Source of the DNA: Candidatus Neomarinimicrobiota bacterium
GTDB taxonomy: Bacteria; Fidelibacterota; UBA2242; B5-G15
NCBI GenBank assembly: GCA_017656425.1
Contig: JACDNV010000007.1
Location: forward strand, 131,821 to 165,253
Direction: 5' to 3'
Length of the DNA: 33,433 nt
The notes below the pieces were generated by a model. That model ran no database searches. It had not been told where the DNA came from and was given only the letters and a program-made list of their open reading frames with translations. The position numbers and the translations under genes are program-made. The first letter of the stretch is position 1. Each line of letters opens with the position of its first letter. Positions 9,781-33,433 of the stretch are shown here, in pieces.

Positions 9781-12700
9781 GTGCGGCTTATACTTATATT
9801 TATCTTTATCTACTATTTCCATGTTAATGCTATCTTTCCATGTACTCTTGTTAAAGAGGAGAAAGTAAATAATCGATTAATAATAACATTTATCAATGAT
9901 TTTCCCGATTACATTTATAAAAATGGTTTGATTTCAGGGATAAAACCTTCGAAAGACTTATCTACAACTTATATCAATGGTTATTTAGTCCCGATCTATG
10001 TCAAAGTATTGAATGCGTTATCAAATGATATTATTGTTAATGTAGAGAAAAAAGATCTAAAGATTATAAATGTTGATGATCTTTCATGTCCTGGTAAGGA
10101 ATATTTCCTTGAGGATAATGATATTACAGGTATTGATAATAAAATCAGACATGGTAATTTGAATGTTTATAAAGAATTCAAAGGTTTCTTTAATGGTTTA
10201 CCTATTACAGCTGTTTATGTTATACCATACATAATTGATTTTGATCAGAGAAAAGTTAAATACTTTAAGGATTTAAGGGTAACAATACAATTACTCGGTG
10301 CATGTAAAAAATCATTATTTGTCGATTTGAATGATAGAATGTTAATGGGGATATTCAAAAATTCAAAAAATTTACACGCTGGTAGAGTTGAGAAGAAAAT
10401 TTTAAGTAAAAATATTCAGAAAAATGTTAATGAAGTTATAAAAGCTGTAATCAATAAAGACGGAATTTATAGAATATATGGGCGTGATTTTAAGAAACTT
10501 GGTATAAATATAATGGAGATCAATCCTTTAAACATACATCTGGAAAATAAGGGGAGGGAATTCCCAATTTATGTAAAAGGATGTGTAGATGGTAAGTTTG
10601 ATTTATCAGATTATATAGAATTTTTTGCAGAGATGAAAAAAAATGAGTCAGATGCATATTATTATGATCCTTTTACTAATAATAATATATATTGGATTTA
10701 CTGGGATGATAATCCAGGACTAAGATATGCCACTGAAGATGCCTCTTTAACAAAGGAATTTGGCGAAGCTATTGTCCCAAGAAATTACCAGTATGACTTT
10801 CATTTTGAGGAGAATAACACTTTTTTTCAATTGGGGCAGGCAGATACTGATAGATCATCATATGTGAGAGATCACTGGTTTTTTGATTATGGAATAATGG
10901 GTGGTTCCACTAATGTGTATACATTTAATCTTATATACCCTGATATGGGAGTGACCAATAGCTTTAACTTTAAAGCTTGCTTTCACGGTCTTACAAAACA
11001 AGATAGGGTGAATAAAATTACAATTTATATTAATGATATAAAGGCTGGTGAAGGGCAATGGAGTGGGCAGAAAAAATTCATTATAAGCAGCAGTAGTAAT
11101 GAAACCGTCTTATTTAATAAATATCTAAAACATGGAGAAAACACAATACAAATAATATCTGAAAGTGAGGATCAATTAAATCCATACACAAAAGTACTTT
11201 TTGACTGGCTTGATCTTAAATATTATAGAGAATATAAAGCTTTTAATGATGAGATTATTTTTAAGAAGCCAGAAAATTTTCCAGCGGGATTGTATCAATT
11301 TAAAGTTGAAGGGTTCAATAGTTCTGATATAGTGATATATGAATTAAACAAGATTAGATTAACTAATTTTGAAACAAGGGGTGATCTTTATACTGGTAAT
11401 TACTATGTATTATTTGAAGATTATGTAGGATCGGATACTGTTGAGTTTTACGCTGCTGGACTATCTGCAATAAAAAGCCCAGTAAATATAACTATAGATA
11501 CACTAGGTCTTGCTGTAAACGCAAACCAGGGAGACATTATAATTATCTCATCAAATGAATATATGGACAATTTAAAGAAATTAGAGGATTTTTATACTAC
11601 GTTGGGGTATACCCCGGTGACTATCTCCATTAAGAATATTTACAATGATTTTAACTATGGAATTGTGAGTCCGTACGCAATAAAAAACTTTTTATTGTAT
11701 GCCATGGAAAATTGGGCGATTAAGCCAAAGTATTTGATAATAGTTGGTGATAGCAAAATTAGAGAGGAGGAATCGGTACCCACTTACTTTTTCCAGACTT
11801 TTAAATATGGAGCTAGTGCGTGCGATTATTGGTATTCACTAATTGACACATGCGATGTAGTACCAGACATAATTGTCGGAAGAATACCATGTAGAAATGA
11901 AGAGGAATTTGACTTATACGTTGAAAAAAGAATCCGCTATGAAAAGAATAGATTAAATACTCCATGGATAAATAGTATCATGCTTATTTCAGGTGGAACG
12001 GAAGCTTTTAATCAACAGACGGATTATATAGCTGAGAATGTGATTGATATGAATACTTTTGTTGATAAATTGATATGTACACCTACAATGGATTATACCG
12101 ACAGTCTAACCTATAAGATGAACAATACAGGATACAATCTAATAAACTTTTTTGGGCATGGAGGAGGAGCAATCTGGTCTGATCGCTCATTGATGTCAAT
12201 CGAAGATGTATATAAATTGCATAATTTTAACATGTTACCAATAGTTACGAGTATGACATGCTTTACAGGTGATTTTGCTGGAGGTGATAGGCTCTCTCTC
12301 GGCGAAAAAATGGTTATGTATGAAAATGGAGGAGCAATTGTATTTATTGGGTCTTCAAGTGTTGGATGGGTCATAAATGATTTTCTTTTTATTAAAGAAT
12401 TTTACAAAAGGATTAAAGAAGGATATACTGTTGGAGAGGCTATTAATCTGGCGAAGATTGATTATTATATAAACAATGTGGATTTTAGCTATCTATCGAA
12501 ATCTATAATGTTTTCTTACAATATTCTGGGTGATCCGACAGTTAAAATCGGTTTTCCATCCGTGGATAATACGATTAATGTTTTAGATGGTACATCTCGA
12601 AGCGATGATAGCGTGAGGTTAACTTTTAATAATTATTCTGGTATTGATGAAATTTACTGCCAGTTATATGGGGATAAACGTGATGCAATATATAAAGAAA

Positions 12701-14523
12701 TATTAAGAATAAAAAATGATGGTAATGGAATGTTTAAATTTGACATTCCTATGAACTATACTGGAAAGTATCTTCTTTTGACTTATTTTATCCCATCGGA
12801 AATCGAGACTAAATCAGGGCACACTATTTTGTGGAGAAATGAGGTTGATTTTGAAAATTTTTTTGTGCTTCCTGAAAATCCAGAGAAAGGTGATAGTATC
12901 TATATAGGAATTAACGTAATAGGAAAAGGCATTGATTCTGTATTATGCCTCGTTGATACTCTTAATACCGTGGTTTATACAAATGAATATGGCTTGCGGA
13001 TTATAAATGGATTTAATGATGAATCTGTAATAAAGGCAATGAGTATGTCTAATAGTTTCAGCTTGGGGAAGTGGATTACAAATGAGGCTTTGATATTGTC
13101 TAAGTTAAATAAAGTAGTAGGGGTGAAATTTATAGCATATAAACAGGATTGCAAATTTGAAAGCCCAATATATACATTTAAAACAGCTGGAAGTATTGAT
13201 CTGAGTGTAGCAGATTTGATACTAACTTTGGGGAAACTACCTAAAATTAAAGCAAAGGTACATTACACTGGTGATAAAACAGTAAATACGAGTGTTGTAT
13301 TTTCAGAGGTAATTGGAAATAAAAATGAAGTACTTGATAGTTGTACTTTAACGATTGATAAGCCAGGGGAATATTATTGTGATATTGAGAGAATTTTGGG
13401 ATTTGGTATAAAAAGATTAAGTGCGGTAATAGATAAAGATAATAAGTATGAAGAAATTAATGAAACCAACAATAAGATAATTAAGAATATACAGGTAAAT
13501 GTTTTTCCTTTGATACCGGGAATAGGTACTACAATTGATGGTAAAAATTATGCAATGATTACACTTGATAGTATTTTTTTCATTGGTGTTAATGGTAAGG
13601 ATGTGCTGGATTCGAGTTCTTTTTCTATAAATATCCAGTGTAAATTAAGGGATAAGATTCACAATCAACCAGGTTTTATTCCTATACATGATTCATTGTG
13701 GAATGTAATCTTTTATGATCGAAATTCTATAGAAGATATCCATTTAAAATATGATAAAGAGATAAAAGATAAAGCTTTATGTAAATTTGATGCAAGATTT
13801 AATAAATGGTATGTTCTAGATGGTCAGAATAATTTTACAGATAGAGTTGTACGTGATAAAAATGTATTCGCTCTGTTTAAGATTTATGATAATAAAATCC
13901 CATCGATTGAAATTAATTCGGAAGGAAAGAATATTTATGATGATTCGTATGTTTCGCCAAATTCAAGCTTGTCAATAATTATTGAAGACGATAATGGACT
14001 TATTGGGAATTGGGAGTTTTTAAAGCTTTTTATGAATAATGTTCTCATTGATACAGGTTCAATTGAGATAATAGATTATGTGCCGGATGAAAATAAACTG
14101 GTCTTGAAACTTAGTCCTGAATATAATTTCGGGATTAATAGTTTAAAGGTTATAGCAAAAGATGTTGCCGGGAATGTAAATGAATCCTTGTTGCGGTACA
14201 GAATAGAAAAGGATCTTAAGCTACTCGATTATGGGAACTATCCTAATCCATTTCAGGCGGAAACTTATTTCATATATGAATTGACGCAGGATGTTGAATC
14301 AGTTGATATTAAGATTTATACAGTGGCGGGTAGACTTATTAAAACAATAAATAGTGAAATAGATAGGTTAGGTATAAATCTAGCTGGTTACCATGAGGTG
14401 TGCTGGGATGGGAAGGATGATGAAGGGAATTATATTGCAAATGGTGTATACTTTTACAAGATAATTGTCAAGCAAGATGATAAAAAACTAACATCTCAGG
14501 GTAAAATTGCAAAAGTGAGATGA
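9781..14523 (+). CDS. Secreted C25 (gingipain/PorU-like) cysteine peptidase with FlgD-like C-terminal domain
   Basis: 1580 aa, GTG start followed at once by a hydrophobic leader (MRLILIFIFIYYFHVNA), which supports export. An N-terminal beta-rich propeptide-like region of about 560 residues leads to a C25 caspase-fold domain (about 580-920). This has the catalytic pair in FFGHGGG (His793) and SMTCFTGDF (Cys827), plus YLIIVGDSK, VGRIPCRNEEEF and the typical domain end NILGDPTVKIG. A CARDB-like module (about 1141-1245, ending EINETNNK) and further beta domains follow. The last ~95 residues (YPNPFQAETYF, IKIYTVAGRLI, WDGKDDEGN, IANGVYFYKI) match the FlgD-Ig-like/type IX sorting-type tail. PorU, the type IX sortase, has the same C25 core, but substrate peptidases do too, so the exact role is open. 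Only 5 bases separate it from cdaA. Confidence 0.82.
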   Translation: MRLILIFIFIYYFHVNAIFPCTLVKEEKVNNRLIITFINDFPDYIYKNGLISGIKPSKDLSTTYINGYLVPIYVKVLNALSNDIIVNVEKKDLKIINVDDLSCPGKEYFLEDNDITGIDNKIRHGNLNVYKEFKGFFNGLPITAVYVIPYIIDFDQRKVKYFKDLRVTIQLLGACKKSLFVDLNDRMLMGIFKNSKNLHAGRVEKKILSKNIQKNVNEVIKAVINKDGIYRIYGRDFKKLGINIMEINPLNIHLENKGREFPIYVKGCVDGKFDLSDYIEFFAEMKKNESDAYYYDPFTNNNIYWIYWDDNPGLRYATEDASLTKEFGEAIVPRNYQYDFHFEENNTFFQLGQADTDRSSYVRDHWFFDYGIMGGSTNVYTFNLIYPDMGVTNSFNFKACFHGLTKQDRVNKITIYINDIKAGEGQWSGQKKFIISSSSNETVLFNKYLKHGENTIQIISESEDQLNPYTKVLFDWLDLKYYREYKAFNDEIIFKKPENFPAGLYQFKVEGFNSSDIVIYELNKIRLTNFETRGDLYTGNYYVLFEDYVGSDTVEFYAAGLSAIKSPVNITIDTLGLAVNANQGDIIIISSNEYMDNLKKLEDFYTTLGYTPVTISIKNIYNDFNYGIVSPYAIKNFLLYAMENWAIKPKYLIIVGDSKIREEESVPTYFFQTFKYGASACDYWYSLIDTCDVVPDIIVGRIPCRNEEEFDLYVEKRIRYEKNRLNTPWINSIMLISGGTEAFNQQTDYIAENVIDMNTFVDKLICTPTMDYTDSLTYKMNNTGYNLINFFGHGGGAIWSDRSLMSIEDVYKLHNFNMLPIVTSMTCFTGDFAGGDRLSLGEKMVMYENGGAIVFIGSSSVGWVINDFLFIKEFYKRIKEGYTVGEAINLAKIDYYINNVDFSYLSKSIMFSYNILGDPTVKIGFPSVDNTINVLDGTSRSDDSVRLTFNNYSGIDEIYCQLYGDKRDAIYKEILRIKNDGNGMFKFDIPMNYTGKYLLLTYFIPSEIETKSGHTILWRNEVDFENFFVLPENPEKGDSIYIGINVIGKGIDSVLCLVDTLNTVVYTNEYGLRIINGFNDESVIKAMSMSNSFSLGKWITNEALILSKLNKVVGVKFIAYKQDCKFESPIYTFKTAGSIDLSVADLILTLGKLPKIKAKVHYTGDKTVNTSVVFSEVIGNKNEVLDSCTLTIDKPGEYYCDIERILGFGIKRLSAVIDKDNKYEEINETNNKIIKNIQVNVFPLIPGIGTTIDGKNYAMITLDSIFFIGVNGKDVLDSSSFSINIQCKLRDKIHNQPGFIPIHDSLWNVIFYDRNSIEDIHLKYDKEIKDKALCKFDARFNKWYVLDGQNNFTDRVVRDKNVFALFKIYDNKIPSIEINSEGKNIYDDSYVSPNSSLSIIIEDDNGLIGNWEFLKLFMNNVLIDTGSIEIIDYVPDENKLVLKLSPEYNFGINSLKVIAKDVAGNVNESLLRYRIEKDLKLLDYGNYPNPFQAETYFIYELTQDVESVDIKIYTVAGRLIKTINSEIDRLGINLAGYHEVCWDGKDDEGNYIANGVYFYKIIVKQDDKKLTSQGKIAKVR

Positions 14524-32321: not shown

Positions 32322-32432
32322 AATAACCTCTTGGTTTTTCTTGTTTTTAATTAATTTATCATACTTTTAAGTTAAGAAATAGATAGGTTAATTGGTAGTG
32401 TTAAATTTAAAGGATTTAGGATAGGAAATATC

Positions 32433-32986
32433 TTGATTGTTTTTGTAGATGGGCTTGGTATTGGCGAGAAAAAAGATACAGATCCTTTATATAAGAATTA
32501 TTATGAGGTATTGAAATATTTTACAATTGAAAATAATTGATTATATTTTCTAATAACATGTATTTTAAAGAAATAAATACCAGGATTGGATTAGAAGGTT
32601 TGCCTCAGAGCGCTACCTGTCAGACAGCGTTATTTACTGGTTATAAACTTTATAATACGATGGAATGTCATATACCTGGATTACCGAATAAAAGACTAAT
32701 TTCGATAATCTATAGAACAAATTTATTACAAAGGCTTGAGAATAGGGGATTAGAAATTGACTTTATAAATGCCTATCATGAAAATTATTTTAAAAGAAGA
32801 TTTAATAATTTGTCATTAACAACACATCTAGTATTGAATCTTAGTAAATCACATTTTTACTTCCTTGAAGATATAAAATCTGGGAATGCTATTTTTGCTG
32901 ATATTACGAATGAGCACCTTAGGAAAGAGGGATATAATATTGATTTAAGCGCAAAGGCTCAGTGCAAAATGCAGAATGAAAATTGA
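32433..32986 (+). pseudogene. Broken AlkP-superfamily metalloenzyme (phosphomutase-like), frameshifted and 3'-truncated
   Basis: The first part starts at TTG 32433 with AGGAA 5 bases upstream and reads ILIVFVDGLGIGEKKDTDPL to ENN, then stop TGA (32538-32540). The Asp of VFVDGLG is a metal ligand in this superfamily. The continuation lies in the -1 frame from 32537 (IIFSNNMYFKE, IGLEGLPQSATCQTALFTGY, HIPGLPNKRLIS, NAYHENYF, FADITNEHLRKEGYNIDL). The two halves join naturally if one base was lost near 32537. The protein then runs into repeat-encoded SAKAQCKMQNEN and stops at 32986. A family member would continue for roughly 100 more residues with the second metal site. I conclude it is inactivated; a sequencing error at the shift would remove the frameshift but not the truncation. 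Confidence 0.7.
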
Positions 32987-33433
32987 AAAATGCAAAATCG
33001 CCTTTTGTCAGATTTGGCTTTTGTACTCAAAATGTATACAGAAATAAATTTGACTTTTGCACTTTGCAATCTTCATTTTGCAATTGCCGTAAGGCTATCT
33101 TGCCCTTCGGGAAATCGCCTTCGGCGACTTCGTGAATACAAGACGATAAGCGCAAAGGCTCAGTGCAAAATGCAGAATGAAAATTGAAAAATGCAAAATC
33201 GCCTTTTGTCAGATTTGGCTTTTGTACTCAAAATGTAGACAGAAATAAATTTGACTTTTGCACTTTGCAATCTTCATTTTGCAATTGCCGTAAGGCTATC
33301 TTGCACTTTGGGAAATCGCCTTCGGCGACTTCGTGAATACAAGACGTTAAGCGCAAAGGCTCAATGCAGAATGCAGAGTGCAAATTGAAAAATGCAAAAT
33401 CGCCTTTTGTCAGATTTGGCTTTTGTACTCAAA
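32946..33433. repeat. 201-bp tandem repeat array, 2.4 units, continuing past the window
   Basis: Units start at TAAGCGCAAAGG: 32946, 33147 and 33348 (86 bases before the edge). Units 1 and 2 differ at four of 201 bases: GTATAC/GTAGAC, two changes in the GCCCTTCGGG hairpin, and ACGATA/ACGTTA. Unit 3 differs from unit 2 at four of 86. The period is a multiple of three. Each unit has an imperfect inverted repeat with 30-base arms (unit 1: 32968-32997 and 33055-33084, 25 matches) and small hairpins. The array begins inside the broken metalloenzyme gene. No transposase is seen. Confidence 0.9.
32968..33084. repeat. Long imperfect inverted repeat within repeat unit 1
   Basis: The left arm at 32968-32997, ending GAAAAATGCAAAA, is complementary without gaps to the right arm at 33055-33084, beginning TTTTGCACTTTGCAATC, at 25 of 30 positions, plus one G-T. 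The 57-nt loop holds a smaller hairpin, TTTTG-TACT-CAAAA (33019-33032). The right arm is followed by GCC-GTAA-GGC, CCC-TTC-GGG and TCGCC-TTC-GGCGA mini-hairpins. Both arms are built from degenerate TGCAAAA-like words. Confidence 0.8.

Follow-up and report, generated by a model that had tools for sequence, protein, structure and literature searches.

Structure of the array at the contig end

The right end of the 165,253-bp contig C7 of this Candidatus Neomarinimicrobiota genome is occupied by a densely folding tandem repeat, which raises the question of whether it is a local satellite, an RNA-forming sequence or a mobile element. The region analysed, hereafter the window, comprises 33,433 nucleotides (C7:131821-165253). 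As the first-pass annotation had described, a repeat at positions 32946-33433 was recovered by TRF, with a period of 201 bp, 2.4 head-to-tail copies and a 97% match; the contig end cuts the array, and 2.4 is the copy number up to that end only. Adjacent units have zero bases between them, and units 1 and 2 differ at four of 201 positions, in agreement with the 197 identities counted earlier. The other side of the array very probably corresponds to the start of contig C25 (locus L046). The features of the array are listed in Table 1.

Table 1. Coordinates of the array, its parts and the interrupted gene in the window
Feature	Position	Strand	Remarks
Decayed host gene, left part (metalloenzyme/phosphatase-like)	32432..32944	+	Interrupted by the array after ...GYNID; intact homologues 43-45%; right part at the start of C25
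Element unit 1, TTAAGCGC...AAGACG, 201 nt	32945..33145	+	
Unit 1 5' arm, TGCAAAA-type words with 7-nt period	32970..32997	+	
Unit 1 loop, 57 nt	32998..33054	+	Four-helix-bundle ORF at the equivalent position of four other loci
Unit 1 3' arm, complementary to the 5' arm	33055..33082	+	
Unit 1 tail, small hairpins GCC-GTAA-GGC and CTTG..TCGCC-TTC-GGCGA..CAAG	33086..33143	+	
Element unit 2, directly abutting unit 1	33146..33346	+	
Element unit 3, cut by the contig end	33347..33433	+	Array probably resumes at the start of C25 (L046)

In the predicted fold of unit 1 the two arms form 25 pairs (32970-32997 with 33055-33082) around the 57-nt loop, which reproduces the long imperfect inverted repeat proposed in the first pass. 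The loop folds further, as had also been proposed, but the MFE structure contains a 19-pair extension and not merely a hairpin of 5 bp. Two of the three serial mini-hairpins suggested for the tail, GCC-GTAA-GGC and TCGCC-TTC-GGCGA, are present in the MFE structure, while CCC-TTC-GGG competes with a larger hairpin (CTTG...CAAG / CGAAG...CTTCG). The energy of unit 1 is -63.1 kcal/mol, compared with -42.0 +/- 4.0 kcal/mol for 200 shuffled sequences (z -5.3), none of which folded as well. The period had been said to keep the reading frame, and it is divisible by three; however, stop codons are present in every 201-nt unit, and therefore no reading frame runs through the array. The search of the window against Rfam produced a tRNA as the sole match, and no rRNA. 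The units are contiguous and have no spacers, unlike those of a CRISPR array. Elsewhere in the window, positions 9781-14523 encode a 1580-residue Peptidase_C25 (gingipain-type) protein with an FlgD-like C-terminal domain and a weak match to the CHU_C type IX secretion signal.

Dispersed copies in the genome

The copy number of the unit amounts to 52 matches at about 19 loci of the genome (2.8 Mb in 50 contigs, 99.66% complete), present as single copies or in runs of up to six. Many of these loci are located at contig ends, where the assembly broke. The placement of the array at such an end would fit a simple satellite or an assembly artefact, but the same units occur with distinct flanks in the interior of contigs C3, C5, C7, C9, C22 and C26, and this explanation, of negligible probability, was ruled out. 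Nearly all complete copies have the same ends, TTAAGCGC... and ...AAGACG, and the rare variants of the left end are ATAAGCGC, TTAATCGC and TTAGGCGC. Apart from one trivial 25-nt match, the unit is absent from 60 relatives.

The distance between units averages 4.2% within arrays versus 5.6% with permuted labels, a value as low being obtained in one of 10,000 permutations, and for 14 of the 26 array units the nearest relative lies in a different array. Thus, units have been duplicated locally and have also been exchanged or newly inserted. Several copies in this genome are antisense to the nearest gene, and the sense bias is weaker than that found elsewhere.

Insertion sites

The interrupted genes for ferritin (L034) and PepF (L041) align without gaps to solved homologues across the junction when the element is left out, and in the host gene of the window the C25 piece aligns to the homologue L156 directly after the break, with no residue lost. 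Since no residue is gained or lost at any of these three junctions, in these cases no bases were duplicated or deleted on insertion. No target-site duplication of the kind that marks a MITE was found; the joins are precise and the arms subterminal. The left flank ends in G at 12 of 15 sites (background 0.19; p 1e-6), and the 3' end of the element, ...ACG, recreates this 'G|' target, so that new copies could land beside old ones.

The elements L039, in sat/cysC, and L038, in an N-acetyltransferase-like gene, lie just downstream of the start codon. Both in ferritin and in sat, the 3' part of the element provides an ATG with an open frame into the host gene, and re-initiation there might, judging from the reading frames, allow expression of the downstream host part. 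In ferritin and PepF the reading frame is open to either side of the element, which together with the precise joins would suit an intron-like element that is removed from the mRNA or bypassed by the ribosome, leaving the interrupted genes functional. The open frames are equally well explained by recent insertion, however; the interrupted genes for Dus and the window metalloenzyme are decayed, and in other genomes the elements lie between genes rather than within them, so an intron-like element is very unlikely. A Shine-Dalgarno-like purine run followed by an ATG, with a frame leading out of the 3' end, was seen at L034 2215-2508 and L039 2404-4410 (reverse-complement coordinates).

The ORF-bearing version and its four-helix-bundle protein

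At four loci (L034, L037, L038 and L039) the same ends and arms as in the unit enclose an ORF of about 124 codons. Its product belongs to the families PF05635 23S_rRNA_IVP (E 9e-15) and TIGR02436 four helix bundle protein (E 1.5e-21). At L037 and L038 ORF-less units stand in tandem behind the ORF-bearing copy. The window unit is most simply interpreted as an ORF-less derivative of an 'IVS-like' S23 element located outside rRNA, because the ORF-bearing versions are those found across phyla. The reverse direction, in which the unit captured the ORF, would be compatible with the data from this genome and is not favoured as the simplest.

The closest cross-phylum pairs of ORFs have a dN/dS of ~0.12-0.22 at a dS of ~0.8-1.4; this low ratio indicates that the four-helix-bundle protein is maintained under purifying selection across phyla. 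We know of no demonstrated biochemical role for S23/IVP proteins apart from Avd. In Coxiella, S23p is apparently not made in vivo (PMC4990558).

The AlphaFold2 model obtained from 24 close relatives of the ORF (pLDDT 94.9) matches the S23 structures 2rld and 2gsc and, at a lower score and ~10% sequence identity, Avd of diversity-generating retroelements (4dwl and 8ub entries), with which the product shares the four-helix-bundle fold. In those retroelements Avd works with a reverse transcriptase (PMC10053308). An RNA-mediated element, moved by reverse transcription or reverse splicing through an Avd-like protein and a reverse transcriptase acting in trans, would agree with this fold relationship, with the precise insertion without duplication and with the sense bias. 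However, unlike in diversity-generating retroelements, no reverse transcriptase (RVT_1) was found in this 99.66%-complete genome, nor in 30 of 46 genomes with PF05635 genes, including a single-contig genome with 16 copies; across relatives a reverse transcriptase is present in 17 of 61 genomes. The window and loci L034, L036 and L038 gave no Rfam intron match, and hence no group I or II intron core. RNA-mediated movement is therefore regarded as improbable.

Complementary arms composed of 7-nt words

Comparison of the sequences upstream and downstream of the gene at 86 four-helix-bundle loci gave a median inverted score of 38, versus 18 for 122 control genes from the same loci, and 93% of the 86 loci exceeded the control 95th percentile (p 5e-30). 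Among 79 5' arms, 64 have a period of 7 nt and 11 one of 8 nt, while control windows have no preference. The words vary from locus to locus, yet they match across each gene: among phylum relatives, the own partner arm was matched better than 95% of the arms of other loci for 87% of genes. Within the TGCAAAATG subfamily, tandem copies inflate the direct-orientation score of this own-pair comparison, and the loci concerned were left out. Other four-helix-bundle subfamilies carry other arm words, both in the relatives and on plasmids of cyanobacteria, Bacteroidota and Chloroflexota; the arms in Nostoc sp. ATCC 53789 are (AATTCGC)n/(GCGAATT)n.

In 278 kb of genome-contig loci 64 arrays of period 7 were found, whereas every other period between 4 and 12 gave 0-6. 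Merging left 53 period-7 arrays; 36 of these lay within 400 bp of the gene and seven of the remaining 17 had a complementary arm nearby, although these loci were selected for the four-helix-bundle gene and the share is that of such loci, not genome-wide. The sole period-7 array found in a 50-kb stretch of a Nostoc plasmid is the arm of its four-helix-bundle gene.

The first-pass annotation had considered an RNA-forming element and covarying pairs among its copies. The strong fold is in line with the former, but comparison of the genome's own 30 units revealed no covariation (0 double changes), and G.U oppositions in the arms at the other loci are no commoner than A.C (81 v 80), so that this part of the proposal is weakly supported. 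Given these two results, the complementarity of the arms serves DNA as well as RNA. Fold-back copying of one arm from the other would be one simple idea of how it is kept while the words change.

Relatives in other Bacteria and Archaea

A scan of 84,980 species genomes for the ORF yielded 56 loci. These relatives, at most 78% identical, belong to archaea such as Methanophagales, to Chloroflexota (73%) and Bipolaricaulota (78%), and to further groups that include WOR-3/Stahlbacteria, Nitrospinota and Planctomycetota. Almost all ORF-relative loci read, from many phyla and archaea, have TGCAAAATG-type arms; the TGCAAAATG repeats mentioned in the first pass for other uncultured phyla proved to be the arms of this four-helix-bundle subfamily. 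The cross-phylum dS is unsaturated, which points to horizontal transfer of the ORF between phyla. No relative was detected in a scan of viral contigs, whereas phage records contained two weak matches and plasmid records 23.

In the other genomes the intergenic elements are in sense between co-directional genes in 25 of 28 cases (p 1e-5), and typically start tens of bases past the upstream stop codon. Selection against harmful insertions could account for part of this sense bias.

Several individual loci deserve description. Four-helix-bundle elements at L146 and L147 (Anabaena and Nostoc plasmids), L148 and L150 occupy the gap between cas2 and cas1, neighbour further cas genes, or separate drmD from pglX in defence operons. 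At L151 and L152 (Gloeocapsa and Chlorohelix plasmids) the gene has the same DUF1156 / Swt1-HEPN context, so that the insertion may be old and shared, or the gene a genuine partner in an operon. On a Hydrogenedentes contig (L120 3426-3588, at the contig end), ORF-less tandem copies with a period of 81 and the same kind of arm pair are found beside a four-helix-bundle gene. On an archaeal contig, the Rfam group II intron domain RF00029 (L094 4931-5005) was identified at a distance of ~1.6 kb from the element.

Nature of the element and its possible mobility

The 201-bp unit probably represents a non-autonomous form, lacking the ORF, that derives from a mobile hairpin element; the full version of the latter consists of an S23/IVP four-helix-bundle gene between complementary 7-nt word arrays. 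The first-pass annotation had preferred a non-autonomous mobile element to a satellite, and this is borne out by the ~19 dispersed loci, the precise insertions into genes and the ORF-bearing copies that share these ends. It had overlooked the protein partner, the organisation into 7-nt words and the spread of the unit through the genome. From the sequence comparisons we infer with high likelihood that the element is mobile.

HUH transposition leaves no target duplication, prefers a particular base at one flank and is associated with hairpins close to the 3' end and with arrays of head-to-tail copies. All of these traits are seen here, and one Y1_Tnp match is present in the genome. The unit could thus be a MITE moved in trans by a conventional transposase, likeliest one of the HUH group (IS200/IS605-like Y1 or rolling-circle), and the four-helix-bundle gene would then be a passenger. 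However, the lone Y1 match has its own, unrelated flanking hairpin (GTAGCACAGACATTC...), and no element with the ends of this family was seen to carry a transposase, although the contig-end copies are incomplete. Four-helix-bundle ORFs are the only ones seen to share these ends, and the gene that is found time and again between the arms is this one, which purifying selection maintains across phyla; movement by a conventional transposase is therefore considered unlikely. The search of the genome for Y2 (IS91-type) transposases gave no match, but neither did any control genome, so that this search carries no weight; no resolvase was found in the genome. The Y1_Tnp-like stretch (L145, C5:26438-26671), with its facing GTAGCACAGACATTC hairpins, looks like a REP-associated transposase or a remnant of one.

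For the hairpin element with its S23/IVP gene, the four-helix-bundle protein may act on the hairpin ends, probably together with host factors, and move both the ORF-bearing and the ORF-less versions. New copies would land at the edge of old ones, where ...ACG recreates the 'G|' target, and such edge landing together with unequal recombination could build the head-to-tail arrays. The hairpin would be tolerated in operons if RNase III cut it from the transcript, by analogy with 23S rRNA intervening sequences.

Comparison with known elements

The intervening sequences (IVS) of 23S rRNA that carry an S23p ORF are cut out by RNase III and have been called selfish; their mobility, present or past, has long been proposed and discussed since 1990 (PMC4990558). 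The elements described here resemble the IVS of Coxiella burnetii (PMC4990558) in having an S23/IVP ORF in a loop closed by terminal inverted repeats, in their sporadic distribution and in their suspected mobility, and the lengths are 428 nt for the Coxiella IVS (PMC4990558) and ~500 nt for the ORF-bearing element. As for the features that define such an IVS, the terminal inverted repeats are present and the S23/IVP ORF occurs in the four long copies, while the window units have no ORF and the location is not within 23S rRNA. Unlike 23S IVS, the elements are dispersed in multiple copies outside rRNA, between or inside protein genes, their arms are arrays of 7-nt words, and the copies that lack the ORF are arranged in tandem. 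In the open-licence literature searched, no earlier account of PF05635/TIGR02436 elements located outside rRNA was found. The widespread and little-studied S23 element is apparently the origin of the hairpin family to which the array belongs.

Rickettsia palindromic elements are palindromic inserts within protein genes that keep the frame open, whereas the 201-bp unit brings stop codons. The unit is similar to MITEs and to REP elements with RAYT in being short, non-autonomous, hairpin-forming, dispersed and sometimes tandem, but no transposase partner with the same ends and no target duplication were found. Heptameric simple-sequence repeats occur in Xanthomonas and Nostoc, with 70-75 facing inverted pairs per genome in Xanthomonas and no general association with mobile elements there, and are over-represented in bacteria with little follow-up (PMC4692102), while Beggiatoaceae have TAACTGA repeats (PMC4679880). 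These repeats share with the present arms the mostly intergenic tandem words of 7 nt (PMC4692102, PMC4679880), and the passages searched contain no link of heptamer repeats to four-helix-bundle genes.

Significance

In a broader and tentative interpretation, which we hold to be possible but doubtful, S23/IVP elements would constitute a distinct class of transposase-free mobile elements spread over Bacteria and Archaea, the 7-nt arms of which are written by copying and not merely selected, and the ORF-less leftovers of which account for much of the heptamer excess in prokaryotic genomes. S23/IVP proteins are common and structurally solved, and the element family gives a handle on their function, with dispersed copies having exact boundaries and both ORF-bearing and ORF-less versions in one genome. 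The complementary arms of 7-nt words represent a general signature that can be searched for anywhere, and they provide a testable explanation of where heptamer repeats, so common in the genomes of microbes, come from.
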